Shown in pieces: positions 22 through 15,339 of a DNA stretch of 64,000 nt; the stretch's first letter is position 1, and the number at the start of each line of letters is the position of its first letter. The stretch covers positions 5,087,501-5,151,500 of the forward strand of contig NZ_CP165727.1 in the NCBI RefSeq assembly GCF_041200175.1, written 5' to 3'. The position numbers were made by a program, and so were the translations under genes. The stretch is from Streptomyces sp. R33 (GTDB lineage Bacteria; Actinomycetota; Actinomycetes; Streptomycetales; Streptomycetaceae). Under the pieces are notes generated by a model that made no database searches, was not told where the DNA came from, and saw only the letters and a list, made by a program, of their open reading frames with translations.

Positions 22-432
22 TCAGCTGTGGACGGCGCCGTTGCCCGACAGGATCGGGATGTTGTCCAGGATGTGCGAGAGGGCCTCGTCGCCCTTGGCC
101 TGGGTGGAGTTCTCGGTGCACTGCTGGTTCTGCGGGTTCGACAGGACGTTGATGTCCTGGAGGCCGATCGGGACGGCGCCGATCAGGCTCTGGACGTTGG
201 CCTTCGCGGGCAGGGCGATGCAGGGCTTGTTGAACGAGCCCTGGATGAGCGCCATCTGGGGGCTCATGGTCCCGTACGTGGCCTGGTTGCCGTAGATCTG
301 CGAAGCGCCGTTGCCGTTCACGGTGTTGATGCCGTTGTCGTTGCCGATGGCCATCGCCTGCGGGGCCAGAGCGGCACCGATGCCCACGACCGAGGCTGCA
401 GCAGCCGCAGTGGCCATCATCTTCTTGATCAT
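22..432 (-). CDS. Rodlin, aerial-hypha surface layer protein
   Basis: Rodlins, with chaplins, form the paired-rodlet layer on the hydrophobic surface of Streptomyces aerial hyphae and spores. The 136-residue product has a Sec signal peptide ending near APQAMA (about residue 28). A Gly/Asn-rich segment (GNDNGINTVNGNGASQIYG) follows, then a hydrophobic body containing NIPILSG, the typical rodlin plan and size. The ATG at 432 is preceded by an AAAGGGA ribosome site. It lies 130 bases downstream of a chaplin gene on the same strand, a pairing known from S. coelicolor (rdlA/rdlB beside chp genes). Whether it corresponds to RdlA or RdlB cannot be told from this window. The family assignment is secure. 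Confidence 0.93.
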   Translation of the reverse strand: MIKKMMATAAAAASVVGIGAALAPQAMAIGNDNGINTVNGNGASQIYGNQATYGTMSPQMALIQGSFNKPCIALPAKANVQSLIGAVPIGLQDINVLSNPQNQQCTENSTQAKGDEALSHILDNIPILSGNGAVHS

Positions 433-562: not shown

Positions 563-805
563 TCAGGCGTTGACGCAGGTGTTGCCGAACGCCGGGTTCA
601 GCACGCCGACCAGGTTGGCGGACAGGCCGCAGACGTTCACCGGGATGTGGACGGGGACCTGGACCAGGTTGCCGCTCAGTACGCCGGGGGACCCCACCGC
701 GACGCCCTCCGCCGAGCTGTCCGCGGAGGCGAGGCCCGCGCCGCCCATCAGGACCGCAGCGCCCGCGACAGCCATCGTGGCGCCGCGCATCAGCCTCTTC
801 TTCAT
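563..805 (-). CDS. Short chaplin (ChpH-like)
   Basis: Secreted amphipathic protein that self-assembles into amyloid-like fibrils and lowers surface tension so that aerial hyphae can leave the medium. The 80-residue precursor has a signal peptide (positively charged start, cut near GLASA) and a single chaplin domain over about residues 38-80, with the SPGVLSGN and VGVLNPAFGN signatures. Two cysteines (in NVCG and NTCVN) are spaced as in short chaplins such as ChpH, unlike the cysteine-free ChpE. No LPXTG sorting signal is present, so it is not a long, cell-wall-anchored chaplin. The ATG at 805 follows a GGAG ribosome site. The same-strand rodlin downstream fits co-expression during aerial growth. 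Confidence 0.95.
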   Translation of the reverse strand: MKKRLMRGATMAVAGAAVLMGGAGLASADSSAEGVAVGSPGVLSGNLVQVPVHIPVNVCGLSANLVGVLNPAFGNTCVNA

Positions 806-981
806 CTCCGATTTTCCTTTCGGTTCGAACGGTGGTGCAACCGCATAACGACCCGCCGACTGCGAGGGTGCGTGTTATCGCCCAAAAGGCCGTACGAGCG
901 AGTCCGGCGTGATTTCCCGCCCGACTTCTGACAAAGTTCACTCCTGTTTTGTCCCCTTGATCGAAAATGGAGACGGGGTTC

Positions 982-2103
982 ATGGGTTCGTCCCGAAGAT
1001 TCCTCGGCACGCTCGGTCTGCTGTCCTGCCTCGTACTTTCGGCGAACGTCCCTGCTGTGGCCGCGGCCGCAGCACCGCCGGGCCCCGCGGCACCCGCCGT
1101 GCGGGAAATGCCCAAGATCCCGTTCACCCAGCGCTACCAGGCCGTCCAGCGCGGCGGGCTGGTACGGGCCTCCAACTCCTCCATCGCCTGCCGCCGGGAG
1201 GAGGCGCCGGACGCCGAGCCGTGCGCCGACGTCAAGCGGGGCGCGGCCGGGGTCAACGGCGACTTCGACATGTTCTACAGCGAGGTCGACAAGGACCCGG
1301 ACACCTACAACTCCACCCGCGCCGAGCTCAAGGTCCCGCAGGGCGCGAAGGTTTCGTACGCCCGCCTGTACTGGGGCGGGAACCTGCGGGTGGGCGAGCA
1401 GAAGCCGCCGCAGGACAACGGCCGGGTGCTGGTCGCCGAGCCGGGAGGGGCGTACAAGGAAGTCCTCGCCGACACCGTGATCGGCCACCGTACGGATGCG
1501 GGCAGCGATGCCTACCAGGCCTCGGCCGACGTCACCCCGCTGGTCCGCAAGGGCGGCGCCGGGATGTGGACGGTCGCCCAGCTGAACATCGCGATGGGCA
1601 ACTCCGAGGTGGGTGCCTGGGGCGGCTGGACGCTGGTCGTGGCCTACGAGCACCCGCAGGAGCCGGTACGCCGGATCTCGCTGTGGGACGGCTTCGAGTC
1701 GCTCGCCGCCGGTGCGGGCGGGGCGGCCGGTGAGACGGTCGAGATCGCCGGCCTCGACGCGGCCGCCGGATCCGCCGGCAAGGCCGGGGTGGTCGCGTAC
1801 GACGGGGACCGTGGGACCCTCGGCGACTCACTCACGGTGACCGCCGACAGCGGCCGCCGGGTCGACGTCAGCGATGCAGAAAATCCTTTTAATGATGTTA
1901 TGAATTCCACGATCACGGAATTCGGACATCAGTCTTTCGTGCGACAGCCCGAACATATGAATAATCTCGGATATGACGCGGACGTGTTCGACCTGAGTCC
2001 CGCCCTGTCCGGTGGCGCCCGCAGCCTGAGCTTCAGGTTCGCGGGCGAAAGCCAGGGTCAATTCCTCGGCGTGCTCTTCGTTCAGACAGACGCGCGCCGC
2101 TGA
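982..2103 (+). CDS. Secreted DUF3344-type protein, first gene of the polysaccharide operon
   Basis: Exported protein of about 373 residues with a clear signal peptide (MGSSRRFLGT, then a hydrophobic run ending AAAA). The body resembles the DUF3344 family of predicted surface or secreted beta-rich proteins of unknown function: YARLYWGGN, GWTLVVAYE and DGFESL are recognisable. I chose the ATG at 982 because GGAGACGGGG precedes it; an in-frame ATG at 967 lacks a ribosome site. The stop is 19 bases before the glycosyltransferase gene, so co-transcription is likely. Oddly, codons between about 1873 and 1980 are A/T-ending (AAT, CCT, TTT, GAT, GTT), unlike the rest of the gene. The function is unknown; its place suggests an extracellular partner of the glycan. 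Confidence 0.75.
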   Translation: MGSSRRFLGTLGLLSCLVLSANVPAVAAAAAPPGPAAPAVREMPKIPFTQRYQAVQRGGLVRASNSSIACRREEAPDAEPCADVKRGAAGVNGDFDMFYSEVDKDPDTYNSTRAELKVPQGAKVSYARLYWGGNLRVGEQKPPQDNGRVLVAEPGGAYKEVLADTVIGHRTDAGSDAYQASADVTPLVRKGGAGMWTVAQLNIAMGNSEVGAWGGWTLVVAYEHPQEPVRRISLWDGFESLAAGAGGAAGETVEIAGLDAAAGSAGKAGVVAYDGDRGTLGDSLTVTADSGRRVDVSDAENPFNDVMNSTITEFGHQSFVRQPEHMNNLGYDADVFDLSPALSGGARSLSFRFAGESQGQFLGVLFVQTDARR

Positions 2104-2122
2104 ACGTAGGAGACCGCTCCGC

Positions 2123-3340
2123 GTGCCGAAACAGCCTCCCCCTGCGCAGTTCTCCCCTGCGCAGGTCCCGATTCCCCGTCCCCTGTCCGTCCTGCATCTC
2201 GTCCAGCCCGTCGACGGCGGTGTCGCCCGTGTCGTCGTCGACCTCGTCCGCGCGCAGACGGCCGCCGGTCTGCGGACCGCCGTCGGCTGCCCGCGCGGCG
2301 GACAGCTCGCCGACGCCGCCCGTAGCGCCGGAGCCGAGGTGCTCACCTGGCGCGCCGGGCGGGCCCCCGGGCCCGACCTGCCCGCCGAAGTGCTCGGCGC
2401 CCGGCGGGTGATCGGCAGGATCCGGCCCGACGTCCTGCACGCCCACAGCGCCAAGGCGGGCCTCGCCGGGCGGCTCGCCGTCCGCGGGGCCGTGCCCACC
2501 GTCTTCCAGCCGCACGCCTGGTCCTTCGACGCCGTCGGCGGGGCCACCGCCGCGCTCGCCCTGCGCTGGGAGCGGTTCGGGGCCCGTTGGGCCGACCGGG
2601 TGCTCTGCGTCAGCGAGGCCGAACGCCGGGCCGGCGAGGCCGAGGGGATCGCCGCCCACTGGTCGGTGATCCGCAACGGCGTGGACCTCGACCACTTCCG
2701 CCCCGGCGGGCCCGACCGGGCCGCGGACCGGACCCGGGCGCGTACCGAACTGCCCTTGCCCACCGCCTTCCTGGGGGACGGGCCGCTCGCCGTCTGCGTG
2801 GGCCGGCTCTGTCACCAGAAGGGCCAGGACATCCTGCTCCGGGCCTGGCGAGAGGTGCTCGGCAACCTCCCCGAGGCCCGTCTCGCGCTCGTCGGCGACG
2901 GCCCCGACACCGAGCGGCTGCGCCGCACCGCCCCACCCGGGGTGCTCTTCGCGGGGGCCGCCCCCGACATCCGACCGTGGCTTCGGGCCGCCGATCTCGT
3001 TGTACTGCCGTCGCGGTGGGAGGGCATGGCGCTCGCCCCGCTCGAAGCCATGGCCTGCGGCCGACCGGTCCTGGTCTCCGACGTCAGCGGTGCCCGGGAG
3101 AGTCTGCCGCCCGGCCAGGGACGGCTCTGCCTGGTACCGCCGGAGGACCCGACGGCCCTGGCCAAGGCCCTGGGACGGCTCCTCGCCGAACCGCGGCTGC
3201 TCGCCGAACTCGGGGAGCAGGCCCAGCAGCACGCCCGGACCGACTTCGACGTGCGGCGGACCACGGACGCGGTCACCGGTCTGTACCACGAACTGCTGGG
3301 CAGGCCCCGGCCCTTGAACCAGGAGCGCATCAGCCGATGA
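2123..3340 (+). CDS. GT4-family glycosyltransferase
   Basis: Retaining glycosyltransferase of about 405 residues, predicted cytosolic or membrane-peripheral, adding a sugar from a nucleotide donor to a growing lipid-linked oligosaccharide. The N-terminal acceptor domain contains VDGGVARVVVDL and a HAHSAKAGLAG segment. The C-terminal donor domain has VGRLCHQKGQD and the EX7E-type motif WEGMALAPLEAM, followed by CGRPVL, as in GT4 (WbaZ/WecG-like) enzymes. The GTG start at 2123 has AGGAG 11 bases upstream. The stop overlaps the next ATG (ATGA at 3337), indicating translational coupling with the sugar transferase. Donor and acceptor cannot be predicted. Confidence 0.88.
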   Translation: MPKQPPPAQFSPAQVPIPRPLSVLHLVQPVDGGVARVVVDLVRAQTAAGLRTAVGCPRGGQLADAARSAGAEVLTWRAGRAPGPDLPAEVLGARRVIGRIRPDVLHAHSAKAGLAGRLAVRGAVPTVFQPHAWSFDAVGGATAALALRWERFGARWADRVLCVSEAERRAGEAEGIAAHWSVIRNGVDLDHFRPGGPDRAADRTRARTELPLPTAFLGDGPLAVCVGRLCHQKGQDILLRAWREVLGNLPEARLALVGDGPDTERLRRTAPPGVLFAGAAPDIRPWLRAADLVVLPSRWEGMALAPLEAMACGRPVLVSDVSGARESLPPGQGRLCLVPPEDPTALAKALGRLLAEPRLLAELGEQAQQHARTDFDVRRTTDAVTGLYHELLGRPRPLNQERISR

Positions 3341-4854
3341 CGATGGACAGCGCACCCGCCCGGCACACCGGGCAGGGCGGCACGGGGCCCGCCGGAGGCA
3401 CCGCCGGCACCGCAGCCGTCCGACGGTCCGTGACCGCCATCCACCCCCCGCGCCGGCCCAGGGCCGACCCGGCCCGGCCCCTGGCGCGGCCGCAGCGGGT
3501 CCGGCGCCGCGACGGGGTCGTCCCGCTGCTGACCGCCGACGCGCTGGCGGCCGTACTGACCACGACGGTCCTGGCCCGGCCCGGGGCGGCGCTGCCGGCC
3601 GAGGCCGCCGCCCCGATCGCCGTGCTGGCCGCCGCGCTGCACGCGCAGGCCGGTCTGTACCGGCCGCGACTCGCGCCCTCCGCGCTGCTGGACCTGCCCG
3701 CGCTGGCCGGGCGGGCCGCCGTCCTGTGGTGCGGGGTCGCCGCCGTCGTTGCCGCCACGGCAGGGGGCCGGGCCCTGGGCTGGTCCGCCCTGCTGAGCGC
3801 CGTCTGCCTGCAGATCCTGCTGACGTGCACGGGCCGCGGGTTCGCCAACGGGCTCCGCTGCCGCTCCGCCCGGCGCCGCCCCTACTCCGCCCTCGTCGTC
3901 GGCCCCGGAGCCGGGGCGAGCGCGGTCGCCGCCGCCCTGCACGGGCGCCCCGAGTACGGGCTGCGGCCCGTCGGGCTCGCCGACACCGGCGCCGGCGAGG
4001 AGGGCGGCGGCAGCGTGCCGGTGCTCGCCACCCACGAGGACATCCGGCGCGCGGTCATCCAGAACTCGGTCCGGCACGCGGTGTTCACCCGCCCGCCGGA
4101 GGCCGACGAGCGCACCGCCTCCCTCGTCCGCCTCTTCCACGACCACGGCTGCCGGCTCTGGCTCGCCGACCCGGCCGGCACCGCCAAGGTGACCGGCATG
4201 CGGGTGGCCCAACCCGCCGACCAGCTGTGGGGGTACGCCGTACAGCCGCTGCTGCCCCGCCCGTCCCGGCCGGTGGAGCGCTGGGTGAAGCGGGCCGTCG
4301 ACGGGCTGCTGGCCGCGATCGCACTGATCGCGGCCGCGCCCGTGATGGGCGTGTGCGCGCTCGCGGTACGGATCTCCGACGGGCCCGGGGTGATCTTCCG
4401 GCAGGAGCGGGTCGGCCTGTACGGGCGCCCGTTCACGCTGCTGAAGTTCCGCACCCTGCGCGCCGACGAGCACGAGTCCGCCACCCGGTGGACGGTCGCG
4501 GGCGACCACCGCATGAGCCCCATCGGCTCCTTGCTGCGCAAGTCCTCGCTCGACGAGCTGCCGCAGCTGTGGAACGTCGTACGGGGTGACATGAGCCTGG
4601 TCGGACCGCGGCCGGAACGGCCGTTCTTCGTGGCGAAGTTCGCCGCCGTGCACCCCGGCTACGAGGCCCGGCACCGGATGCCCGTCGGCATCACCGGGCT
4701 CGCCCAGATCAACGGCCTGCGCGGGGACACCTCCATCGAGGACCGGGCCCGCTTCGACAACCACTACATCGACACCTGGTCGCTGTGGCAGGACCTGTGG
4801 ATCCTCGCCCGCACCGCGGCCTCCTTCTTCCGCTTCCGGCTGGGGGGCAGCTGA
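3337..4854 (+). CDS. Polyprenyl-phosphate sugar-1-phosphate transferase (initiating glycosyltransferase)
   Basis: Likely starts the polysaccharide by moving a hexose-1-phosphate from a UDP-sugar to undecaprenyl phosphate at the inner face of the membrane. The roughly 505-residue protein has several N-terminal membrane spans, a central nucleotide-binding-like region (VVGPGAGASAVAAAL), and a C-terminal bacterial sugar transferase domain: a hydrophobic hairpin, then LLKFRTLRAD, SLDELPQLWNV and SLVGPRPERP. This is the WbaP/EpsL/CpsE (PHPT) architecture. It starts at the ATG overlapping the previous stop; a second ATG two codons later is possible. The stop overlaps the next start (ATGA at 4854). 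It is the only initiating enzyme visible in the cluster. Confidence 0.92.
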   Translation: MTMDSAPARHTGQGGTGPAGGTAGTAAVRRSVTAIHPPRRPRADPARPLARPQRVRRRDGVVPLLTADALAAVLTTTVLARPGAALPAEAAAPIAVLAAALHAQAGLYRPRLAPSALLDLPALAGRAAVLWCGVAAVVAATAGGRALGWSALLSAVCLQILLTCTGRGFANGLRCRSARRRPYSALVVGPGAGASAVAAALHGRPEYGLRPVGLADTGAGEEGGGSVPVLATHEDIRRAVIQNSVRHAVFTRPPEADERTASLVRLFHDHGCRLWLADPAGTAKVTGMRVAQPADQLWGYAVQPLLPRPSRPVERWVKRAVDGLLAAIALIAAAPVMGVCALAVRISDGPGVIFRQERVGLYGRPFTLLKFRTLRADEHESATRWTVAGDHRMSPIGSLLRKSSLDELPQLWNVVRGDMSLVGPRPERPFFVAKFAAVHPGYEARHRMPVGITGLAQINGLRGDTSIEDRARFDNHYIDTWSLWQDLWILARTAASFFRFRLGGS

Positions 4855-6257
4855 TGAGCGTCGCCGTATCCCTGGGCGGCTCCCGGCCGCCCGACGCCGC
4901 GGGGTTGCTGCGGCGGCACTGGCCGCTGCTGCCGCTCGCCGCGACCGTCCTGCTGCTCCTCGCCCCGATCGCGGCGGGTGACGCGAGCACCTCCGGCAAG
5001 GTCGGACCGGCCGATGCCGCATCCCTGGTGCTGGTGTTCGTGTGCGTGGTGCAGGCGCTGCGCGGGCGGGTGCGGGAGCTGAGCCCGCTGGGCGTGCCTG
5101 TGCTGGGCGTGCCCGCCGTGGGGCTGGCCGTCGCGACCGTGACCGCCGGGGACCCGTACGCGGCGCTGCCCGGTTTCGTGCGCTACCTCCAGGTGTTCGT
5201 GCTGGTCCCGGCGGCGATCGTGCTGCTGGTGCGCGACGCCGGGGAGTTCCGGCTGGCTGCGGGGTGCTTCGTGGTGCTGGCGCTGGTGCAGGGCGCGGTG
5301 GGGGTCGTGCAGTACGCGACCCACACCGGGGCCTCGTACCAGGGCGAGGACGTCCGGGCCGTCGGCACGTTCGGCCCCGGCGACGTGATGGGCATGGCCA
5401 CCGTGGTGGCGTACGGGCTGGTCGTGGCGACCGCCGCGGCGCTGGCTCCGGGACTGCCCCGCCGGGTACGACAGTCGGCGGGCGCCGCTGCGCTGGTACT
5501 GGTGGTGCCGCTGGTGCTGTCGTTCAGCCGGGGCGCCTGGATCGCCACCGCCGGCGCGGCGGTGCTGGTGATGCTGCTGGCCGGGATCCGGCGGGCCCTG
5601 AAGGTGCTCCTCGCGCTGGCCGCGGCCGGTGTGGTGCTGGTGGGCGGGCTCGGGGTCGGCTCCGAGATGGTCGCGGAGCGGCTGACCTCGATCACCCAGG
5701 TCTCCAGCGCCCCCGACCAGTCGGTGACCGACCGCTACACGATGTGGGCCGCCGCCGAGTCGATGTGGCGCGAGCGGCCGGCGGTCGGCGTGGGCCTCAA
5801 GGGCTTCCCGGCCAACCGGGACGGGCACTCCTCGCTGGGGCTGTCCTCCGGCAGCGACACCGCCGGCGCGGGGCAGGCGTACATCCGCCAGCCGCTGCTC
5901 TCCCCGCACAACATGTACCTGCTGGTGCTGAGCGAGCAGGGCCTGATCGGGCTGACCGCGCTGGCGGGAGGCTGGGCGGCGCTGCTGGTCGCGGGACTGC
6001 GGCGGTGCGCCACGGGCGGGTCCGGGCTCCAGGACTGCGGCCTGATCGCGATCGGGCTGTTCGTCTGGCAGCTCACCGACTTCCTGTACGCCGACATCGG
6101 CGGGCCGTCCACCGTCCTGACCGGAGTGATCATCGGCCTGGCGGCCTGGTGGGCCTTGCCCTCCCGGCAGGACGCCACCGGCCTCGCCGCTGCCGCGGAC
6201 GGGCGCACCGGCCTCGCCGCCGGCCTGCGCGCCGTACCGGGTGCGGACGGCCGGTGA
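4854..6257 (+). CDS. O-antigen ligase / Wzy-like polysaccharide polymerase
   Basis: Polytopic membrane protein of about 467 residues made almost wholly of hydrophobic spans, with a large extracytoplasmic loop before the last helices. The segment SFSRGAWIA, followed by MWAAAESMWRERPAVGVGLKGFP and later SPHNMYLLVLSEQGLIG, is typical of the O-antigen ligase/polymerase superfamily (Wzy_C / WaaL), in which the periplasmic loop carries the catalytic His and Arg. It should polymerise or transfer repeat units exported by the flippase encoded next. The ATG at 4854 overlaps the previous stop, and its own TGA overlaps the GTG of the flippase gene at 6254. Polymerase and ligase cannot be separated from sequence; the single-operon context favours polymerase. 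Confidence 0.88.
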   Translation: MSVAVSLGGSRPPDAAGLLRRHWPLLPLAATVLLLLAPIAAGDASTSGKVGPADAASLVLVFVCVVQALRGRVRELSPLGVPVLGVPAVGLAVATVTAGDPYAALPGFVRYLQVFVLVPAAIVLLVRDAGEFRLAAGCFVVLALVQGAVGVVQYATHTGASYQGEDVRAVGTFGPGDVMGMATVVAYGLVVATAAALAPGLPRRVRQSAGAAALVLVVPLVLSFSRGAWIATAGAAVLVMLLAGIRRALKVLLALAAAGVVLVGGLGVGSEMVAERLTSITQVSSAPDQSVTDRYTMWAAAESMWRERPAVGVGLKGFPANRDGHSSLGLSSGSDTAGAGQAYIRQPLLSPHNMYLLVLSEQGLIGLTALAGGWAALLVAGLRRCATGGSGLQDCGLIAIGLFVWQLTDFLYADIGGPSTVLTGVIIGLAAWWALPSRQDATGLAAAADGRTGLAAGLRAVPGADGR

Positions 6258-8050
6258 CGGATACGACGCCCTGGCGGCGGCCCGCGGCCGCGGCGACCGA
6301 AGTCGCCGCGGCTGCGGGCCGTCCGCCGCACCCCGACCCGGCTCCGGTCCCGCCGGTGCCCCCCGTTCCCCCGCTCGGCCCCGGCCATGCGCGGGCGGTC
6401 GGCGGGGCCGGGGGGAGCGGAGCCGGCGGGAGCGGAGGCGGGAGCGCGCCGGCTCCGCTGGGGCGGTTCCTGGCCAAGGCCGCCGCCGTCACGGCGGGAC
6501 TGACCGCCGCCGGGGCGGTGTTCGGGCTGGTCCGGGACCAGACCATCGCGCATCTCTTCGGGGCCGGGCACGACAGCGACGCGTTCCTGATCGCCTGGAC
6601 CGTGCCCGAGATGGCCTCGACGCTGCTGATCGAGGACGCCATGGCGCTGCTGATGGTGCCCGCGTTCAGCCATGCCCTGGCCCGGCGGGCGGCCGGCCGC
6701 GCGGGGCTCACCCGCAAGGAGGCCCGCGCGCAGGACCCCGTACGGCTGCTCGTGGGGGCGACCCTGCCGCGGCTGGCGGTGCTCCTGGCGGCCGTCGCCT
6801 CCGTGCTGGTCGTTGCCGCGCCGCTCGTCGTCGCCGTGCTCGCGCCCGGACTGCCGGATCCGGACCTGGCCGTGGAGTGCACCCGGATGACCGCACTGAC
6901 CGTGCTGTCGTTCGGCATCGCGGGGTACTTCAGCGCCGCCCTCCGGGCGCACCGTTCGTTCGTTCCACCGGCCGCGATCTACGTCTCGTACAACGTCGGG
7001 ATCATCGGGACGATGGTCGCGCTGCACGCGGCGTGGGGGGTGCGGGCCGCGGCCGCCGGGGTCGCCGTCGGCGGGCTGCTGATGGCGCTGGTCCAACTGC
7101 CCGCGTTCATCCGGAACGTGGGCTTCGGCCCGTCCCGCGCGAAGGGCGCGCCGCGCAGCCAGCGCGACCGGGACCGGCCCACCCTGATGGCGTTCGGGCT
7201 GATCGCCCCGGTCATCTTCTTCGCCGTGTTCCGGCAGTCGCAGGTCCTGGTCGAGCGGTTCCTGGCCGCCTCGCTGCCGCCCGGGGCCATCTCGCACCTG
7301 AACTACGCGCAGAAGGTCGCGCAGATGCCGATGGTGCTGTCGCTGATGATCTGCACCGTCACCTTCCCCGTCGTCGCCCAGGCCATGGCCGGCGGCGAGC
7401 GCGAGAAGGCCCGGCGGCGCGTCGAACAGGACCTCGCACTGGCTTCCCTCGCCGTCCTCATGGGCAGCGCCCTCGTCATCGGGTACGCGCCCCAGATCAT
7501 CCAGGTCCTCTTCGAACGCGGCGCCTTCACCCACCGCGACACAATGGCCACCGCCTCCGTCATGCGGGTCTACGGCCTCGGACTCCTCGGCCACTGCCTC
7601 GTCGGGGCGCTGTCCCGGCCCTTCTTCTCGACCGCCCGGCCCACCTGGTTCCCGGCGCTCGCGATGGGCGCCGGACTCCTCGTCAACATCGTGGCCGGAG
7701 CCTTCGCCGTCCGCTGGTGGGGCACGTACGGCATCGCCGCAGCCAACGCCGCCGGCATCTCCACCACCGCCGTCCTGCTGCTCACCGGGCTCGGCTCGCG
7801 GATCGTCGCCATCCAGGTCCGCCGGGTCGCGCTGAGCATCGGCCGGCTCTCCGTCGCCGCCGTCGGCGCCTGCGGCACCGGCTGGATCGCCGGTCCCATG
7901 ATCCCCGACCCGATGCTCAGCGCCGCACTCGGCTGCCTGCTCGTTCCCGCCATGTTCGGCGCCTGCGGCATGGCCATACGGGCGCTCGAGATCACCGCCC
8001 TGCCCGCCCAGATCACCAAGATGACCCAGAGGTTCCGCAATGCCCGCTGA
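6254..8050 (+). CDS. MurJ/Wzx-type lipid-linked oligosaccharide flippase
   Basis: Multi-spanning MOP-superfamily protein of about 598 residues matching the MurJ/MviN family (FGLVRDQTIAHLFGAG near the start of the fold, SHLNYAQKVAQMPM, VLFERGAFTHRDT). MurJ proteins flip lipid II; in a sugar-transferase/polymerase operon the natural inference is that this copy exports the undecaprenyl-linked repeat unit. A Pro/Gly/Ala-rich, presumably cytosolic tail of about 75 residues precedes the first helix. The start is GTG at 6254, which overlaps the preceding stop. The end overlaps the next gene by 11 bases. It is probably not the essential murJ, which in streptomycetes normally lies near the replication origin; that is prior knowledge. 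Confidence 0.88.
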   Translation: MTDTTPWRRPAAAATEVAAAAGRPPHPDPAPVPPVPPVPPLGPGHARAVGGAGGSGAGGSGGGSAPAPLGRFLAKAAAVTAGLTAAGAVFGLVRDQTIAHLFGAGHDSDAFLIAWTVPEMASTLLIEDAMALLMVPAFSHALARRAAGRAGLTRKEARAQDPVRLLVGATLPRLAVLLAAVASVLVVAAPLVVAVLAPGLPDPDLAVECTRMTALTVLSFGIAGYFSAALRAHRSFVPPAAIYVSYNVGIIGTMVALHAAWGVRAAAAGVAVGGLLMALVQLPAFIRNVGFGPSRAKGAPRSQRDRDRPTLMAFGLIAPVIFFAVFRQSQVLVERFLAASLPPGAISHLNYAQKVAQMPMVLSLMICTVTFPVVAQAMAGGEREKARRRVEQDLALASLAVLMGSALVIGYAPQIIQVLFERGAFTHRDTMATASVMRVYGLGLLGHCLVGALSRPFFSTARPTWFPALAMGAGLLVNIVAGAFAVRWWGTYGIAAANAAGISTTAVLLLTGLGSRIVAIQVRRVALSIGRLSVAAVGACGTGWIAGPMIPDPMLSAALGCLLVPAMFGACGMAIRALEITALPAQITKMTQRFRNAR

Positions 8051-8816
8051 CACCCGCACGGCGCCGGCCGCCGCGACGGTCCCCGCCCGCCGGACCGCCT
8101 CGCCGTGGGTCCTGATGTACCACTCGGTCGCCGAGTTCACCGACCCCGCAGAGGACCCGTACGGCATCACCGTCACCCCGGGCACGCTGGAGGGCCAGCT
8201 GCTGTGGCTGCGCTCCCGGGGCCTGCGCGGGGTGTCCGTCGGCGAACTGCTCCGGGCGCACGCGGCCGGGCGCGGCGCCGGGCTCGTCGGGCTGACCTTC
8301 GACGACGGCTACACCGACTACCTGACCCGGGCGCTGCCGCTGCTGCGCCGCCACGACTGCACCTCGACGCTGTTCGTGCTGCCCGGGCGGCTCGGGGTGG
8401 ACAACGCGTGGGACCCGCTCGGTCCGCGCAAGTCCCTGCTGACCGCCGAGGGCATCCGCGAAGTGGCCGCCGCCGGACAGGAGATCGGTTCGCACGGGCT
8501 GCTCCACCAGGACCTCACCGCGGCCGCCGACGACATCCTCCAGCAGGAGCTGCGGGGCAGCCGCGAGCTGATCCGGGAGCTGACCGGGACCCTGCCGGAG
8601 GGGTTCTGCTACCCGTACGGGCACCTCGACGAGCGGGTCGTCGCGGCGACGCGGGCCGCCGGGTACGGGTACGCGTGCGCCATCGACCCCGGGCGGCTGG
8701 CCGGCCCGCACGCCCTGCCGCGCACCCACGTCAGCCAGGCGGACGGGGCCGGGCGGCTGCGGATCAAGCAGCTGCGGCACCGGGTGCGGGAGCTGCGGCG
8801 GGCGGTGCACCGATGA
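8040..8816 (+). CDS. Polysaccharide deacetylase (NodB/CE4)
   Basis: CE4-family enzyme of 258 residues that removes N- or O-acetyl groups from glycans using a metal held by one Asp and two His. The motifs are all visible: LMYHSVAEF, LTFDDGYTDYL (catalytic base Asp and metal Asp), SHGLLHQDL (the H-x4-H-like metal pair) and FCYPYGHLDERV. There is no obvious signal peptide, so it may act inside the cell on the lipid-linked unit or be exported by another route. It starts inside the end of the flippase gene and its stop overlaps the start of the next glycosyltransferase (ATGA at 8813). The deacetylated product would be a cationic amino-sugar polymer if the substrate contains N-acetylhexosamine; this is inference. 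Confidence 0.92.
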   Translation: MPADTRTAPAAATVPARRTASPWVLMYHSVAEFTDPAEDPYGITVTPGTLEGQLLWLRSRGLRGVSVGELLRAHAAGRGAGLVGLTFDDGYTDYLTRALPLLRRHDCTSTLFVLPGRLGVDNAWDPLGPRKSLLTAEGIREVAAAGQEIGSHGLLHQDLTAAADDILQQELRGSRELIRELTGTLPEGFCYPYGHLDERVVAATRAAGYGYACAIDPGRLAGPHALPRTHVSQADGAGRLRIKQLRHRVRELRRAVHR

Positions 8817-10105
8817 AGTCGCCACGGGCGCTGCACATCATCACGGGGCTCGGGGTCGGCGGCGCCGAGCAGCAACTGAGGCTGCTGCTGCGGCACATGC
8901 CGATGCGCTGCGACGTGCTGACCCTGACCAACCCCGGGCCGGTGGCCGAGGGGCTGCGGGCCGACGGGGTCCGGGTGGTGCACCTGGGGATGCGGGGCAA
9001 CCGGGACCTGGGGGCGCTGCCGAGGCTGGTGCGGTTCATCCGGCGCGAGCAGTACGACCTCGTGCACACGCACCTGTACCGGGCCTGCGTGTACGGGCGG
9101 CTCGCGGCCCGGCTCGCGGGGGTCGGGGCGACCGTGGCCACCGAGCACTCCCTCGGCGAGGGCGAGATCGAGGGCCGGCGGCTGACGTCCGGGGTGCGGG
9201 CGCTGTACCTGGCCAGTGAGCGGCTGGGCGCGGCGACCGTGGCGGTGTCGGACACCGTGGCGGCGCGGCTGGAGGGGTGGGGCGTGCCGGCCGCGCGGGT
9301 GCATGTCGTACCGAACGGGATCGAGGCCGTCCGCTTCCGCTTCGACGAAGGCGTGCGCAGGGCCACCCGGGCCCGCAGCGGGCTGCCCGAACGGGCGTTC
9401 GTGGTCGGCGGGGTCGGGCGGCTGGTGCCGGGCAAGCGGTTCGACTCGCTGGTCCGGGCGGTGGCGGCGCTGCCGGGCGCGCATCTGCTGCTCGCCGGGG
9501 ACGGTCCGGAGCGGGCGGCGCTGCGGCGGCTGGCGGCGGAGCTGGGCGCGCAGAGCCGGGTCCATCTGTTGGGGGAGCGGGACCCGCTGGGCGACAGCGC
9601 GGACGGGCGGACGCCGGGGATCCCGGCGCTGCTGGCCGCGATGGACGTCTTCGTGTCGCCGTCGCGGGAGGAGGCGTTCGGGCTGGCGGTCGTGGAGGCG
9701 CTGGCTGCGGGGCTGCCCGTGCTGCACGTCACCTGTCCGGCGATCGACGACCTCCCGGCGGCGCAGGCGCCGGGGGCGCGGCGGATCGGGACCGGGACGG
9801 AGGAGCTGGTCGCCGCCCTGCGCGGGCACATGGAGGCGGGCGCGCGTCGGCTGCCGCCGCCACCAGTGGTCCGCCGCTACGACATCGCCCGCAGCGCGGA
9901 CCAGCTCCTCGAGGTCTACGCCCTGGCCCTGTCCGGAGCCCCGGCCCCTGCGCCCCGGCCGCCGGCCGGGCCGGAACTGCCGGGCTGCGCCGTGGAAGGC
10001 GCTGCGGTGCGGTCGACGGCCGGCCGCAGGCCGGACTCCCGGGGCGCTGACCCGGACCCCGCGCCTCACACGCCGGCGGGGCTGGAAGTGCCGCCGGGCG
10101 GTTGA
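8813..10105 (+). CDS. GT4-family glycosyltransferase
   Basis: Second glycosyltransferase of the cluster, about 430 residues. The N-terminal domain begins with HIITGLGVGGAEQQLRLLL, the typical GT4 acceptor-side glycine loop. The C-terminal domain has VGRLVPGKRFDSL and the EX7E element SREEAFGLAVVEALAAG. A Pro-rich, low-complexity tail of about 50 residues follows the catalytic fold. Its start overlaps the deacetylase stop. The 71-base gap after its stop, the largest within the operon, contains the ribosome site of the Wzz-like gene. It is similar in fold but not closely related to the glycosyltransferase at 2123, so two different linkages are probably made. Confidence 0.88.
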   Translation: MKSPRALHIITGLGVGGAEQQLRLLLRHMPMRCDVLTLTNPGPVAEGLRADGVRVVHLGMRGNRDLGALPRLVRFIRREQYDLVHTHLYRACVYGRLAARLAGVGATVATEHSLGEGEIEGRRLTSGVRALYLASERLGAATVAVSDTVAARLEGWGVPAARVHVVPNGIEAVRFRFDEGVRRATRARSGLPERAFVVGGVGRLVPGKRFDSLVRAVAALPGAHLLLAGDGPERAALRRLAAELGAQSRVHLLGERDPLGDSADGRTPGIPALLAAMDVFVSPSREEAFGLAVVEALAAGLPVLHVTCPAIDDLPAAQAPGARRIGTGTEELVAALRGHMEAGARRLPPPPVVRRYDIARSADQLLEVYALALSGAPAPAPRPPAGPELPGCAVEGAAVRSTAGRRPDSRGADPDPAPHTPAGLEVPPGG

Positions 10106-10176
10106 TTCACGCAGCGCCGAAGGGGCTCCCGACGCGGGGCCCGAAAGAACTCCCATTCCTCCAGGAAGGCACGTAG

Positions 10177-10887
10177 ATGGCTGACACCGCCGATCAGAAG
10201 AAGTCCGATCAGAAGAAGACCGACCGCCGTCGTCGCAGGGTGCGGCTGCTGCCGCCGCCCGCGTGGTGGCCTCTGCCCGTCGCCGCCGCTCTCGGGCTGG
10301 CCGCGGGCGGGGCGTACGGGGTGCTCAAGGCGCCCGAGTACGCCGCCACCAGCTACGTCGTCGCCGTCCCGGACGACACCACCGAGCCCGCGACCGCCCT
10401 CGGCTTCGCCCAGGCGTACGCGCGCATCGCGACCAGCAGTTCCACCCTCGCGTACGCCCAGCCCCGGGCGGGCATCAGCGCCCGCCGGCTCCGTACGCAG
10501 GTGCGCGCCGAGACCTCCCCCGAGTCCCCGATGATCGCCATCACGGGAACGTCGAAGAGCCCGACCGAAGCCGCGGACATCGCCAACGCCGTTGCCGATG
10601 CGCTCTCGCTGAGCAGCAATCAGGCCGCCAAGAACACCGGCGTCCAGCTGCTGCTGTTCAACCAGGCCGTCGCGCCGAGCGAGCCCGCCTCGCCGTCCGC
10701 CACCGTCAGCGGGGCCGTCGGGCTGTGCGCCGGCGGGCTGCTCGGCGGGCTGTGGCTGCTGGCCCGGCCCGGCCGCAGCCGGCGGCCCGAGGGCCGGTCC
10801 GAGGAACAGCCGGTCGTCGAGGAGTACGCCTCCCTGCCCGCCCAGGGCGACCACAACGAGACCAAGGAGAAGGAGTCCGTGCGATGA
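10177..10887 (+). CDS. Wzz/YveK-like chain-length or export co-polymerase membrane protein
   Basis: Membrane protein of 236 residues with a basic N-terminus, a first transmembrane helix (about residues 30-48), an extracytoplasmic domain of about 120 residues, and a second helix (about residues 170-190). This is the N-in/C-in Wzz arrangement. The segments YAATSYVVAVPD and ITGTSKSPTEAADIANAVADAL resemble the Wzz/CapA domain, whose C-terminal part would follow in BY-kinase systems. No tyrosine-kinase domain or Tyr cluster is present here or next door, so chain-length control would be kinase-independent or use a kinase outside the window. AGGAAGG precedes the ATG. The stop overlaps the start of the acyltransferase gene. 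Confidence 0.75.
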   Translation: MADTADQKKSDQKKTDRRRRRVRLLPPPAWWPLPVAAALGLAAGGAYGVLKAPEYAATSYVVAVPDDTTEPATALGFAQAYARIATSSSTLAYAQPRAGISARRLRTQVRAETSPESPMIAITGTSKSPTEAADIANAVADALSLSSNQAAKNTGVQLLLFNQAVAPSEPASPSATVSGAVGLCAGGLLGGLWLLARPGRSRRPEGRSEEQPVVEEYASLPAQGDHNETKEKESVR

Positions 10888-12026
10888 CTACGGGCTCCAC
10901 CGGGGCCCTGTCGGTGACGCTGTGCCGCGACCCCCGGCAGTTCGCCGCGCTGGAAGAGCCGTGGAACCGGCTCTTCCGGGCCTGTCCCACCGCCACTCCC
11001 TTCCAGAGCCACGCCTGGCTGCACTCCTGGTGGCTCTCGTACGGCCGGGACGGGCGGCTGCGCATCGTGCTCGTACGGCGCGGCGGGGAACTCGTCGGCG
11101 CCTGCGCGCTGATGCTCGTCCACCGGCCGCTGCCGCTCCTGGTGCCGCTCGGCGGCGGCATCACCGACTACTTCGACGTGCTCGTGGACGCGCAGTACGC
11201 CGACCAGGTCGTTCCGGCGCTGGCCCGCGGGCTGCACCGGGCCGCCCGCGGCGCGGTCGTCGACCTGCGCGAGGTGCGGCCCGGGGCCGCCGCCGAGGCG
11301 CTGTACGGCCAGTGGCCGGGGATCCGGAGCAAGCTCGCCGACTCCACCTGCATGGAGCTGCCCGCGCTGCCGTTCGACGAGCTGGTCAAGCGGATGCCGG
11401 CCTCGGGTGCCCAGCGGGTCCGGGCCAAGCTGCGCAAGACCGACGCGGCCGGGATCGAGGAGCACGAGGTCACCGAGCAGGAGGTGCCGCGCGCGGTACG
11501 GACGCTGCTGCAGCTCCACGAGAAGCAGTGGCGCGGCCGCGGGGTGACCCCGGAGCACCTCAGGCCCCGTTTCGCCGAGCACCTGACCCGGGCCACCCGG
11601 CGGATGGTGCGGGCCGGCGAGGGCCGGCTGACCGAGTTCCGGCTGGACGGGAAGGTGGTCGCCGCCAACGTCACCCTGCTGTCGGGGGCGTTGAGCGGCG
11701 GCTACCTGTACGGGGCCGACCCGGACCTGCGGACCCGGAAGGTGGACGTGGCGACGCTGTTGCTGCGCTACGAGGCCGGCCGCGCCCTCGCGGAGGGCCG
11801 CCCGGTGGTGAGCTTCCTGCGCGGCAACGAGCCGTACAAGAACCACTGGCGGCCCGAGACGGTCGTCAACCAGCGGTTCCTGCTGGCCAGGACGGCGCTC
11901 GCGCCCCTGCTCCGCCTGCACGAATCGCAGGTGACGGGGCGCGAGCGTGCGGTGGACGCGCTGCGCGAGGCCCTGCCGGCCGCCAGGGACTGGCGGGCGC
12001 GGCTCAACGAACTGCGGGTCCGATGA
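10884..12026 (+). CDS. FemAB/CelD-type GNAT acyltransferase
   Basis: Protein of about 380 residues resembling the BioF2-like/FemAB fold (CelD, cellulose biosynthesis family) found in many exopolysaccharide clusters. Visible family segments are TPFQSHAWLHSWWLSYG near the N-terminus, RRGGELVGACALML, LHEKQWRGRGVTPEHLRP and GGYLYGADPDLR toward the C-terminus, ending in the FLRGNEPYKNHWRPE region. Members are thought to transfer acyl or aminoacyl groups to glycan intermediates. It is the last gene of the operon, starting at an ATGA overlap. Its stop lies only five bases from the stop of the convergent GH26 gene, with no hairpin between, so the two 3' ends may overlap as antisense transcripts. Confidence 0.82.
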   Translation: MTTGSTGALSVTLCRDPRQFAALEEPWNRLFRACPTATPFQSHAWLHSWWLSYGRDGRLRIVLVRRGGELVGACALMLVHRPLPLLVPLGGGITDYFDVLVDAQYADQVVPALARGLHRAARGAVVDLREVRPGAAAEALYGQWPGIRSKLADSTCMELPALPFDELVKRMPASGAQRVRAKLRKTDAAGIEEHEVTEQEVPRAVRTLLQLHEKQWRGRGVTPEHLRPRFAEHLTRATRRMVRAGEGRLTEFRLDGKVVAANVTLLSGALSGGYLYGADPDLRTRKVDVATLLLRYEAGRALAEGRPVVSFLRGNEPYKNHWRPETVVNQRFLLARTALAPLLRLHESQVTGRERAVDALREALPAARDWRARLNELRVR

Positions 12027-12031
12027 CGGTT

Positions 12032-13639
12032 CTACCAGGGCCAGAAGCCGGAGTCCTTGCCCCAGTTGATCTTGATGCAGACCGACTGCTTGCCGACCAG
12101 CTTGGAGAGCCACTCGCCGAAGTTGAGCGGCACGCACCACTCCGTGCTGTTGGCGGGCGGTTCGGGGGGCTCGGGCTTCGGCACGACCGGGCTCGGGACG
12201 GGGCTCGGGACCGGGACCTCCGGCGACGGGACCGGGTTCGGGATCTCCGGCGACGGGACCGGCACCGGGACGGGGTCCGGGCTCGGGTCCACCGGGGTCT
12301 CGGGCGACGGGACCGCCGGCGAGGGCTCGGGCACGGGCTCGGGGACCGGCACGGGCTCGGGCACCGGCACGGGCTCGGGGCTCGGGCTCGTGCTCGGGAT
12401 CTCCGGCGAGGGGACCGGCACCGGCACCGGGACCGGGAGCGGGAGCGGGACCTGCGGACTCGGGATCTGCGGGATCTCCGGGATCTCCGGCGACGGGATC
12501 GCCGGGGAGGGCACGGGGATCTCGGGGGTCGGGATCTGCGGGATCGGCACGACCGGCGTCGGGATCACCGGGGTCGGTACGACCGGGGTCGGTACGACGG
12601 GCGTCGGCACGACCGGCGTCGGGATGACCGGCGTGGGCACCACGGGCGTCGGGACCGGGTCCGGACGCTGGGGCGCGAGCGCGGCCCGGAAGGCCTTCGC
12701 GGACTTCGGGTTCTGCTTGCACTGCCACACGCCGTGCGGGCAGTAGTCCGTGATGGTGTGGTACAGCGGCCTGTGCTGCTCGATCCACTTCAGCATGCGC
12801 CGCACGTACTCCGCGTTGTCCCCGTGCCGGAACAGCCCCCACTCCGGGTACGAGATCTCTTTGCCGTGCGCTTTCGCGAAATCCACGTGCTGCTGGAGCC
12901 CGTACGGCTGCTTGACCATCTCGTCGAACGTCTTGCCGGGAGCCTGGTCGTACGAATCCATGCCGACGATGTCGACCACGTCGTCGCCCGGGTAGCAGTT
13001 GGTCCAGCCGATCGCGTCCGACCCGCGGTTGGGGGCGTAATCGAACTTGAACTCCGCACCGGGGACGGAGCGCATCGCGTTGACGATCCGCCGCCAGTAC
13101 TGCTTCCAGCCCTCCGGGTCCGGCGCGCAGCGGTGGGTGTACGTGGCGCCGTTCATCTCCCAGCCGAGCACGATCACCGTGTCCGGGACGCCCAGCTCCA
13201 CCAGCCGTCGGGCGAGCTTCTCGAAGTGCCGGTCGAACTCGCCCTTCGCACCCGCCCGGATCAGCTGCGCCACCTTGCGGTCGGGGACCCGGTCCTCGTT
13301 GCGCTCCTGCATGGGCACGTTCAGGACGAACAGCCGGTCCGCCTTGGCACGGCGCCACTCGGCCCACGGCTCCAGGAAGTCGGGGCCCTCGATGCGGGCC
13401 CAGCGGTCCCCGGGCAGATAGGTGTGGCCGACCCGGATCTCCTTGCCGCCCAGCCAGCGCGACAGGTTGGGGATCCGGGCGACTCCGGGCGGACCGGAGT
13501 CGAGAAAGGCGCCCACGGCGATGTCGGAGCCCTTGGGCTGCTCCCGCTCGGGGGCCGCGAGCGCGGCCCCGGTGGCGAGCAGTCCGGCCGTGACCGTACC
13601 GATGCAGGTGCTCGCCAGTCGGCGGTGTGGTCTGGGCAT
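12032..13639 (-). CDS. Secreted GH26-like beta-mannanase with Val-Pro-Thr-Pro linker
   Basis: Exported glycoside hydrolase of about 535 residues. A signal peptide (to about residue 28) is followed by a catalytic domain of about 310 residues. [11 protein letters not shown] carries the likely acid/base Glu161 and YPEWGLF the likely nucleophile Glu266, the clan GH-A arrangement of GH26. A Pro-rich tail of roughly 170 residues follows ([12 protein letters not shown]-type units), ending in a short Cys/Trp-containing terminus ([11 protein letters not shown] to FWPW) that may anchor or bind. The ATG at 13639 has GGGAG just upstream. It converges on the polysaccharide operon, which suggests a role in trimming or releasing that polymer; mannan degradation is the family-based alternative. 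Confidence 0.85.
12150..12665 (-). repeat. Tandem 15-base repeats encoding Pro-Thr-Pro-Val-Val units
   Basis: In-frame low-complexity array in the GH26-like gene. The most regular part (about 12545-12660) repeats a 15-base unit encoding [10 protein letters not shown] and similar variants; toward the C-terminus it drifts into mixed units rich in Pro, Ser and Glu. Such arrays vary in copy number between strains and act as extended cell-wall-spanning linkers. Confidence 0.9.
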
Positions 13640-13771: not shown

Positions 13772-15226
13772 GTGAAAGACACCGTTCCCATGCACGCGTT
13801 CGACGGCCATGTGCCTGCTGTAGTGCTCAGACTCGATCGGAATCCGTTCCACCACGGAACCCTCGGCGCCGTCAGATCTCTCGGGCGGAGGGGCGTGGAG
13901 GTCCATGCCGTCGTCGAGGCCGGGGGAGGTCCCATGGGGCGCTCGCGCTACCTGCACGCCGTGCATCCCGGACCGGCCGGCGGGCTGGACCCGGAGGCTC
14001 CGGAGACGCTGCTGGAGTGCCTGGTCGGGGTGTCGGAGCGGATCGGCAGGCCGGCGGTGCTCGTCGCGATGGACGACCTGAGCGCCATCGCCGTCGCGCG
14101 GATCGCACCGATGCTGGACGGGCGGTTCCGGATCCCCCATCAGCCCGACGGGCTGCCGGCGCGGGTGGCGGACAAGGCCGAGCTGGCGCTGCTGTGCGCA
14201 CGCTGGGACATCCCGCACCCGGAGACGGTGATCCCGGCGAGCGGGGCGGAGGCGGCGGAGGCCGCGTGGCGCCTCGGCCTGCCGGCGGTCGCCAAGTGGA
14301 GCCGGCCCTGGCTGCTGCCCCCGGGCGGCGGGCTGCGCAGCACCACGCTCGTGCACACCGCCGCCGAGGCGCGCCGCCTTTACGAGCGCACGGCGGAGGC
14401 CGGGAGCCGGCTGCTGCTCCAGCGGTTCCTGCCGGCCGGGACGGACACCGACTGGTTCTTCCACGGAGCCTTCGCCCGGGGCGGGCACCCGCTGCTGGCG
14501 GGGTCGGGCCGCAAGGAGCTGTCCTGGCCCGTACGGACGGGGCTGACGGCGGTGGGGCGCTGGCTGCCGGATCCGGCGGTGGAGGAGGCGGGGCTGCGGC
14601 TCGCCGAACGGCTGGGCTACCAGGGGATCCTGGACCTGGACTTCCGCCGGGACGAGCAGGGCTGTTTCCGGCTGGTGGACTTCAACCCCCGGCCGGGCGC
14701 ACAGTTCCGGCTGTTCACGGATGCGGGCGGGCTGGACGTGGTCCAGGCGATGTACCTGGATCTGACGGGGCAACGGGTCCCGGAGCCCGCGGGCGGTCCG
14801 GGCCGGGTGTTCGTCGCGGAGAACTACGCCCTGCTGGCGTCGCTCCGCGGCCGCCGGCTCCCGTGGCGGTCCCCGGCCCGCCCGCCGCTCCCGTCCCCCT
14901 CGGCACCCGAAGACGCCGGGCCGGGGCAGGACCGCGCCGCGGGCGGCGGGCCCGGGCGGCTGGTGCGGCCGGTGCGGGTGGCGCCGCGGGCGGAGCGGGG
15001 GCGGGTGGAAGCGGCCTGGTTCGCCGCCGACGACCCGATGCCCTTCCTCGGGATGCTCGCCGCGTTCCTGGGCCGGGGCGCGGCGAAGGGGGTGCGCGCG
15101 CTGCGCGGCGTACCGGCACACGGCCGCCGTACGGCCCGGGCCGTGGTCCGCGCCCCGCGCCAGCGCGCCCGCGACCTGACCCCGCCGACCGCTCCTGCCG
15201 AACCGGACGAACTGGTGACCCGATGA
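13772..15226 (+). CDS. ATP-grasp domain ligase (carbamoyl-phosphate-synthase-like)
   Basis: ATP-grasp enzyme of about 484 residues, predicted to activate a carboxylate as acyl phosphate for attack by an amine or other nucleophile. The N-terminal Rossmann-like part starts AVVLRLDRNPFHHGTLGAVRSL. The ATP-binding core has GLPAVAKWSRPW and LLLQRFLPAGTDTDWFFHGAF, and the metal-binding end is GILDLDFRRDE...LVDFNPRPGAQ, which shows the Asp/Glu and Asn-Pro-Arg typical of the fold. A Pro-rich insert precedes a basic C-terminal tail. The GTG at 13772 or the ATG at 13790 could be the start. It shares a 132-base divergent region with the GH26 gene, and its stop overlaps a short downstream ORF. The substrate is unknown. 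Confidence 0.82.
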   Translation: MKDTVPMHAFDGHVPAVVLRLDRNPFHHGTLGAVRSLGRRGVEVHAVVEAGGGPMGRSRYLHAVHPGPAGGLDPEAPETLLECLVGVSERIGRPAVLVAMDDLSAIAVARIAPMLDGRFRIPHQPDGLPARVADKAELALLCARWDIPHPETVIPASGAEAAEAAWRLGLPAVAKWSRPWLLPPGGGLRSTTLVHTAAEARRLYERTAEAGSRLLLQRFLPAGTDTDWFFHGAFARGGHPLLAGSGRKELSWPVRTGLTAVGRWLPDPAVEEAGLRLAERLGYQGILDLDFRRDEQGCFRLVDFNPRPGAQFRLFTDAGGLDVVQAMYLDLTGQRVPEPAGGPGRVFVAENYALLASLRGRRLPWRSPARPPLPSPSAPEDAGPGQDRAAGGGPGRLVRPVRVAPRAERGRVEAAWFAADDPMPFLGMLAAFLGRGAAKGVRALRGVPAHGRRTARAVVRAPRQRARDLTPPTAPAEPDELVTR

Positions 15227-15339
15227 CGCCCCGCCATCGGCCCCCGTCGCCGTCTCCGGCGCCGCGGGGGCCCGACATGCGCAGGGCCGGAGGCACTGGC
15301 ACGGGCGAGGGGCCCATGAGACTGGAGGGACAGCGGTGA
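15223..15339 (+). CDS. Possible 38-residue bridging ORF
   Basis: The ATG at 15223 overlaps the stop of the ATP-grasp gene (ATGA), and the TGA at 15337 overlaps the GTG of the flavoprotein gene (GTGA). The product would be a Pro/Arg/Gly-rich, 38-residue peptide beginning MTPRHRPPSP. It matches no family I know. It may be a real small protein or only a translated spacer that couples the two enzymes. Confidence 0.35.
   Translation: MTPRHRPPSPSPAPRGPDMRRAGGTGTGEGPMRLEGQR

Follow-up and report, generated by a model that had tools for sequence, protein, structure and literature searches.

The window analysed here, a stretch of 64,000 nucleotides from the 9.1 Mb genome of Streptomyces sp. R33 (contig NZ_CP165727.1, positions 5,087,501 to 5,151,500), carries on the chromosome a tightly packed operon of nine co-directional genes for a Wzx/Wzy-type polysaccharide (967-12026, delimited by open reading frame and family searches), accompanied by a convergent gene for a secreted hydrolase of glycoside hydrolase family 26 (GH26) and placed next to chaplin and rodlin genes. 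In textbook accounts, the aerial hyphae and spores of Streptomyces are coated by chaplins and rodlins. The gene content and the pairing with GH26 are solid. As a Wzx/Wzy locus accompanied by its own hydrolase, the system is of a known kind; what is chiefly new is its chaplin/rodlin setting, which also offers the best clue to function. We give a probability of roughly 0.5 to the reading suggested by the sequence evidence, namely that the operon would make a heteropolysaccharide that belongs to the chaplin/rodlin sheath covering aerial hyphae and spores, or is deposited along with it. An earlier sequence-only reading of this DNA had described the operon and the hydrolase; it overlooked a conserved tail in GH26 and, above all, the chaplin/rodlin setting.

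The operon and its hydrolase gene

The elements of the locus, with the evidence for each assignment in brackets, are:

22-432, minus strand: rodlin, outer sheath protein (NCBIfam rodlin_AB NF041022, 229 bits against a cut-off of 75)
566-808, minus strand: short chaplin, divergent from the operon (PF03777, 2.3e-27)
809-966: common intergenic region from which chaplin and operon diverge (aligned across 7 close relatives)
967-2103, plus strand: secreted DUF3344-like protein with an N-terminal hydrophobic segment (PF11824, 2.5e-6, just above cut-off)
2123-3340, plus strand: GT4 glycosyltransferase, GTa (Glyco_trans_1_4, 1.1e-36; Glyco_transf_4, 1.1e-26)
3337-4854, plus strand: polyprenyl glycosylphosphotransferase, the initiating enzyme (Bac_transf, 1.4e-60; TIGR03025, 335 bits, cut-off 296)
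4854-6257, plus strand: predicted Wzy-type polymerase (Wzy_C, 7.8e-19; 10 hydrophobic segments by Kyte-Doolittle)
6254-8050, plus strand: MurJ-family flippase (MurJ, 7.6e-60)
8040-8816, plus strand: NodB-fold polysaccharide deacetylase (Polysacc_deac_1, 3.6e-25)
8813-10105, plus strand: GT4 glycosyltransferase, GTb (Glyco_transf_4, 4.3e-26)
10177-10887, plus strand: Wzz/CpsC-like co-polymerase without kinase domain (TIGR01006, 5.9e-7, below cut-off; alignment of 21)
10884-12026, plus strand: Acetyltransf_6 (FemAB/CelD/BioF2-like) acyltransferase (PF13480, 5.4e-26; alignment of 21)
12032-13639, minus strand: secreted GH26 hydrolase (PF02156, 5.8e-9, 36.2 bits, cut-off 20.2)
12674-13534, minus strand: GH26 catalytic domain, followed by a Pro-rich linker and the C-terminal tail
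12035-12148, minus strand: conserved two-cysteine tail of GH26 (alignment of 28, genome scan, tree and tally)
13772-15226, plus strand: ATP-grasp-type ligase-like protein, usual block member (conserved in 18 aligned loci; weak cyanophycin synthase match, 5e-5)
15336-16619, plus strand: FAD/NAD(P) monooxygenase-like flavoprotein, usual block member (Pyr_redox_3, 1.6e-16; Lys_Orn_oxgnase, 1.6e-11)

Six of the eight junctions within the operon are overlaps of 1 to 11 bases and the other two are gaps of 19 and 71 bases, which bears out the nine-gene co-directional arrangement put forward in the sequence-only reading; the convergent secreted GH26, with five bases (12027-12031) between its stop and that of the acyltransferase gene, was also correctly described there. 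The first gene may start at the ATG at 967 or at a second ATG at 982.

Gene order in the operon is kept across Streptomyces, and Nonomuraea and Actinomadura show the same block order, but with a GTa-like gene placed next to GH26; the arrangement is thus more than chance. In 121 evenly drawn Streptomyces genomes (matches at E up to 1e-20, kinship not corrected for), GH26 was found in 88 and Wzy in 85; both were present in 82 and neither in 30, while nine had only one of them, either GH26 (six genomes: G001, G010, G030, G046, G090 and G113) or Wzy (three: G045, G067 and G081). The sequence-only reading had offered a lack of co-occurrence as grounds for giving up the link between hydrolase and operon; co-occurrence is what was found, and the link holds. 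Among the genomes with GH26 only, the match in G030 is distant (32% identity), and G046, G010 and G090 hold other operon genes beside GH26. Both genes were on the same contig in 71 of the 82 genomes and on different contigs in the other 11; with the exception of G012, the distance between them was 4.5-10.2 kb (70 of the 71), and in these 70 the strands were opposite in 57 and the same in 13. Across the class, GH26 (E up to 1e-40) was detected in 16 of 197 genomes, belonging to 3 of 90 genera.

The core of the cluster as previously delimited (982-13639) was confirmed, but the conserved block usually extends to about 16619, to include the ATP-grasp and flavoprotein genes (13772-16619) that had been overlooked. 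This extent was tallied over 67 loci with at least 3 kb of sequence beyond GH26, near-identical strains included, so that their independence is overstated: both genes were present in 50, only the ATP-grasp gene in 3, only the flavoprotein gene in 1 and neither in 13. The ATP-grasp gene adjoins GH26 in 53 of the 67 loci, and the flavoprotein gene lies within 4 kb of GH26 in 51. In five of the 13 loci with neither gene (L015, L016, L056, L061 and L062), GH26 is co-directional with the operon and is separated from the acyltransferase by a chaplin. It could be speculated that the two additional proteins supply an amino-acid-derived substituent. The next gene in the window (16929-19028) encodes a phosphatase of the SpoIIE type that also carries PAS, GAF and kinase-like ATPase domains; it is kept in close relatives but not in more distant Streptomyces.

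The chaplin and rodlin setting

The rodlin and chaplin genes that open the window were confirmed by NF041022 and PF03777, and three more chaplin domains are located beyond the window edge, 1.2-3.5 kb upstream of the operon; four of the 13 chaplin domains of this genome lie within 3.5 kb upstream of it. The corresponding figures at the operon locus of other genomes are three of nine (G004 and G006) and one of eight (G005). Of 44 Streptomyces loci fetched, one per genome, 36 have a chaplin near the operon, as identified with a profile seeded from matches in the same loci; Pfam confirmed the chaplin of the window and two from Actinomadura. Placements vary: chaplins can be divergent upstream, accompany rodlins beyond the flavoprotein gene, or sit between the acyltransferase and GH26. 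In three of five Actinomadura loci, repeat chaplins are found 2.0-2.9 kb beyond the flavoprotein gene; one of the other two loci is cut short.

The same association is found on plasmids. Eight plasmid records had a GH26 match and six were opened (H5 and H6 were left out): the linear plasmids H2, H3, H4 and H7 have annotated rodlins and chaplins together with the operon and GH26, tblastn places the operon, a chaplin and GH26 on the unannotated H8, and H1 carries GH26 without the operon. In the linear-plasmid loci L114, L116, L117 and L118 an MMPL transporter and a two-component system lie between members of the set, and two of these loci have a transposase at the GTa end. The idea of the operon as cargo of conjugation or phages was set aside, the plasmids being typed as non-mobilizable and the operon being chromosomal in the window genome.

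The intergenic region 809-966 has a mean column identity of 91% over the 7 close relatives, and this conservation hints at a shared regulation of the divergent chaplin and operon. A scan of the region for sigma-70-type promoters and terminators found none, and no sigma-BldN site is claimed from inspection by eye. Chaplin and rodlin genes have been reported as sigma-BldN targets at the time of aerial growth (PMC4255298).

Several findings weigh against a sheath polysaccharide. Eight of the 44 Streptomyces loci, which were hand-picked and not a random set, have no chaplin (L004 and L008, both cut by contig ends, L038-L042 and L044), and none was found near the operon in any of six Nonomuraea and two Streptacidiphilus loci. 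Three genomes (G002, G003 and G008) have chaplins but no GH26 or Wzy match, so the operon is not needed for the sheath. Conversely, since Wzy occurs without a GH26 match in G045, G067 and G081 (the contig being cut in the latter), the hydrolase is not indispensable; moreover, the co-occurrence counts are not adjusted for kinship. No nucleotide-sugar gene was found among the operon proteins scanned, and neither was a kinase (BY-kinase, CpsD/Wzc C-terminal), the rest of the genome not having been searched for the latter. A BY-kinase partner is not universal in Wzx/Wzy-type systems, and the absence of a kinase domain agrees with the earlier description of the Wzz-like protein, whose match to TIGR01006 is well below cut-off (29 bits against 296) and which has no Pfam match. 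Finally, the Wzy_C domain is also found in O-antigen and O-oligosaccharide ligases.

The loci without chaplins would be expected if the operon made an ordinary vegetative exopolysaccharide or capsule and its place among chaplin genes reflected old synteny without shared function, and the cores of Streptomyces chromosomes do keep synteny in general. We regard this alternative as unlikely, though not negligible, because the linkage between chaplins and operon persists over divergent layouts, recurs with the repeat chaplins of Actinomadura, and is found as a whole set on linear plasmids.

The distribution of Wzy_C bears on a different and rather improbable proposal, in which this protein would be a ligase transferring the oligosaccharide or a short polymer onto a wall acceptor or a protein of the surface, such as the DUF3344-like protein or a chaplin; the product would then be a glycoprotein or a wall glycopolymer instead of a free polysaccharide. 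Its matches to ligase-type models (TIGR03097, 8.7e-11; TfpM, 0.002), both below cut-off, the gene for a secreted protein at the head of the operon and the fact that Gram-positive surface polymers are often linked to the wall would all be in line with such a role. However, the presence of a Wzz/CpsC-like protein argues for a polymer of controlled length, pairing with an endo-type hydrolase also suits a polymer, and the DUF3344-like gene, with a match of more than 600 bases in 23 other loci, is missing from many. The model of the DUF3344-like protein is all-beta and of low confidence (pLDDT 63.9), its best match in the PDB (Z 8.1, rmsd 3.1, 124 aligned residues) is at the background level of the tool, and a PDB sequence search gave 0 matches.

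The GH26 hydrolase and its tail

The window GH26 is 98% identical to that of S. katrae NRRL B-16271. Its catalytic segment was modelled from an alignment of 47 sequences with a pLDDT of 92.5, and the best structural match is a family 26 lichenase (2v3g; Z 26.1, rmsd 2.6, 253 aligned residues, 16% identity), followed by family 26 mannanases and xylanases. Identity to solved GH26 enzymes is only 16-18%, and a lichenase as the nearest fold to the model would not fix the substrate. Two glutamates, E126 (GWEMNG) and E231 (YPEWG) in the numbering of the aligned segment, are invariant in 47 of 47 relatives and are expected to be catalytic, as in the GH26 family. PslG (5bx9) also appeared among the fold matches (Foldseek E 2.8e-6). 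It belongs to a different family, GH39, and its gene in Pseudomonas, like those of other exopolysaccharide-locus hydrolases, is likewise paired with polymer genes.

Inspection by eye indicates a signal peptide on the full-length protein, which also contains a long Pro-rich linker and ends in a tail of about 30 residues that includes two cysteines. This tail is present in 54 of 59 Streptomyces GH26 copies adjoining the acyltransferase end of the operon, in none of 13 such copies from Actinomadura, Nonomuraea and Streptacidiphilus (the operon-linked copies without it being these 13 and five from Streptomyces, 18 altogether), and in none of 14 copies located elsewhere; in the GH26 tree these 14 belong to three clades. 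Elsewhere means not beside the acyltransferase end: six of the 14 sit at a distance of about 5-8 kb on the opposite flank of the operon; 16 such copies had been called, and L006 (a broken gene) and L078 (where the contig ends) were dropped. The tree excludes the duplicate loci L001, L064, L069 and L074 as well as the fragment L008. Of the sequences scored with the tail profile, 28 had served to build it; 27 of the 54 positives had not contributed to it. When genomes were scanned with this profile, 14 had a match: in 12 it ends the GH26 gene beside the operon, in G012 it corresponds to a tail severed from its gene, and in G123 (E 0.001) to a chance match in an unrelated low-complexity frame. 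The simple reading of these sequence comparisons is that the tail may have arisen within Streptomyces and goes with the operon position.

In G012 (L006 and L043) GH26 is split: the tail has stayed beside the acyltransferase gene, while the operon and the catalytic domain are about 0.69 Mb apart; the gene was broken in or near the repetitive linker by a rearrangement, or else misassembled. In six Streptomyces loci (L021/L022, L023/L024, L025, L027, L029/L030 and L098) an additional GH26 gene that lacks the tail lies near chaplins on the 5' side, so that the operon is bracketed by two GH26 genes. A separate clade of GH26 proteins, 73-75% identical (L013, L049, L051, L052 and L053), has no operon gene within the 20 kb fetched.

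Tail-less copies away from the operon, one of them on a plasmid that lacks it, and the nearest fold being that of a lichenase are what could be expected of a nutritional mannanase or lichenase that lies beside the operon by chance. This is very improbable and was set aside, since both the tight co-occurrence and position of GH26 and Wzy and the distribution of the tail (54 of 59 Streptomyces copies by the operon, 0 of 14 others) speak against it, as does the low identity to solved enzymes. The best reading of the sequence data is that GH26 would act on the polymer of its own operon, by trimming or releasing it.

Proposed pathway and related systems

For a sheath heteropolysaccharide, the following pathway can be proposed. 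The phosphoglycosyl transferase, encoded by one of three such genes in the genome, would start the repeat unit on undecaprenyl phosphate, and the two GT4 enzymes would lengthen it. The NodB-type site of the deacetylase (catalytic Asp and Asp-His-His metal site: D88, D89, H152 and H156) is invariant in 75 of 75 rows. Because neither a signal peptide (judged by eye) nor a hydrophobic segment is present, the enzyme should be cytoplasmic and modify the lipid-linked unit there, freeing an amine on an N-acetylhexosamine. The FemAB/BioF2-type acyltransferase could then add another acyl or aminoacyl group to this amine, in the manner proposed for HfsH and HfsK in the Caulobacter holdfast; PDB sequence searches with the acyltransferase gave two chance-level matches in one case and none in the other, and its alignment retained 21 of 25 rows (18 of 21 for the ATP-grasp protein). 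The earlier suggestion of a cationic product is weakened because this adjacent enzyme may re-cover the amine freed by the deacetylase. N-deacetylation and re-acylation would precede export, in which a dedicated MurJ-family protein would flip the unit. The sequence-only reading was right in that a flippase gene is present, but within the MOP superfamily the protein belongs to the MurJ family (about 204 bits) and is not a classical PST-type Wzx (Polysacc_synt, 25.8 bits, below its cut-off of 28.2); since the genome holds two other, higher-scoring MurJ proteins (382 and 306 bits), the divergent one is probably dedicated to the operon. The Wzy protein would polymerize the unit, its length being controlled by the Wzz-like protein, and the secreted GH26, held at the surface by its linker and a disulfide-type tail, would trim or free the polymer.

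A bolder and at present doubtful extension would be that the aerial sheath is not made of protein alone, and that this dedicated and widely conserved polysaccharide forms an integral layer or anchor within the amyloid coat. Its amines, free or re-acylated, would hold chaplin/rodlin fibrils, GH26 tethered by a coat-specific tail would remodel it for spore release, and the ATP-grasp protein and flavoprotein would supply an unusual amino-acid-derived substituent, the locus lying within the chaplin/rodlin cluster and moving with it on linear plasmids.

Among described systems, the wps-1 cluster of Actinoplanes missouriensis is also an actinomycete Wzx/Wzy cluster with a GH26 gene, wpsE, and acts in sporangium formation; Tezuka and Ohnishi state that, to their knowledge, no Wzx/Wzy-pathway cluster with GH26 had been characterized before, and with their wpsE mutant abnormal sporangia developed alongside normal ones and spore release was slightly reduced (PMC13390465). 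It differs in having GT2 and GT26 enzymes, two sulfotransferases, a methyltransferase and a kinase-like protein, and that account describes no deacetylase, FemAB-type acyltransferase or chaplin link (PMC13390465); the comparison is one of described gene content. A sulfated cluster of the wps-1 type was rejected, as no sulfotransferase was found among the ten proteins scanned (operon and GH26). The wps-3 cluster of the same organism combines a deacetylase, GT4, Wzx, Wzy, Wzz and a BioF2-like acyltransferase, but it is described with an additional aminotransferase, monooxygenase and dioxygenase and without GH26, and its deletion is reported to cause no phenotype (PMC13390465). In the Caulobacter holdfast, an adhesive Wzx/Wzy-type polysaccharide is modified by the deacetylase HfsH and the FemX-like GNAT protein HfsK, and loss of either weakens holdfast cohesion (PMC5362036, PMC8449245); HfsK has been proposed to acylate the amines freed by HfsH (PMC5362036). 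By sequence family, the window acyltransferase is assigned to the same broad GNAT/FemX-like group. The Caulobacter case differs in that hfsK is outside the hfs locus and export is of the Gram-negative type (PMC5362036, PMC8449245), and the analogy is not universal, because no role of HfsK could be detected in Hirschia baltica (PMC8449245). The Ebosin ste cluster of Streptomyces sp. 139 is likewise a Streptomyces exopolysaccharide cluster, but one of many more genes, including the nucleotide-sugar genes ste6, 17, 19, 23 and 24 (PMC11078827); an Ebosin-type cluster was rejected, since genes for nucleotide-sugar synthesis were not found among the operon proteins.

No study of this locus was found in the open-licence full-text literature, where a subscription paper could be missed, and, as the sequence-only reading had supposed, no characterized polymer could be attached to the operon from the literature searched. 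In S. coelicolor the block presumably corresponds to SCO2706-SCO2715, between chpF and chpA, judging from the matching layout. The tags SCO2706-2715 appear in that literature only as SCO2713, once, as a control RNA. Reported positions are SCO2705 for chpF, SCO2716 for chpA, SCO2717 for chpD and SCO2718-2719 for rdlA/rdlB (PMC5826349). In a survey of transporters, Saier and colleagues mention Q9KYG0 of S. coelicolor (239 residues), whose gene lies beside those for a glycosyltransferase and a polysaccharide deacetylase (PMC3924187); this fits the Wzz-like gene of the operon. Spore chains have been described as surrounded by a transparent, sheath-like structure, which is attributed to two layers of protein (PMC5618241).

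A polysaccharide operon with its own hydrolase in a chaplin/rodlin neighbourhood represents a specific and easily deleted candidate for a missing sugar component of the Streptomyces coat, and it is this setting that turns an anonymous polysaccharide cluster into a testable one. Besides, the locus offers a GH26 subfamily whose putative substrate is the polymer of the operon, and what may be a Gram-positive counterpart to the deacetylation and acylation of holdfast-type polysaccharides.

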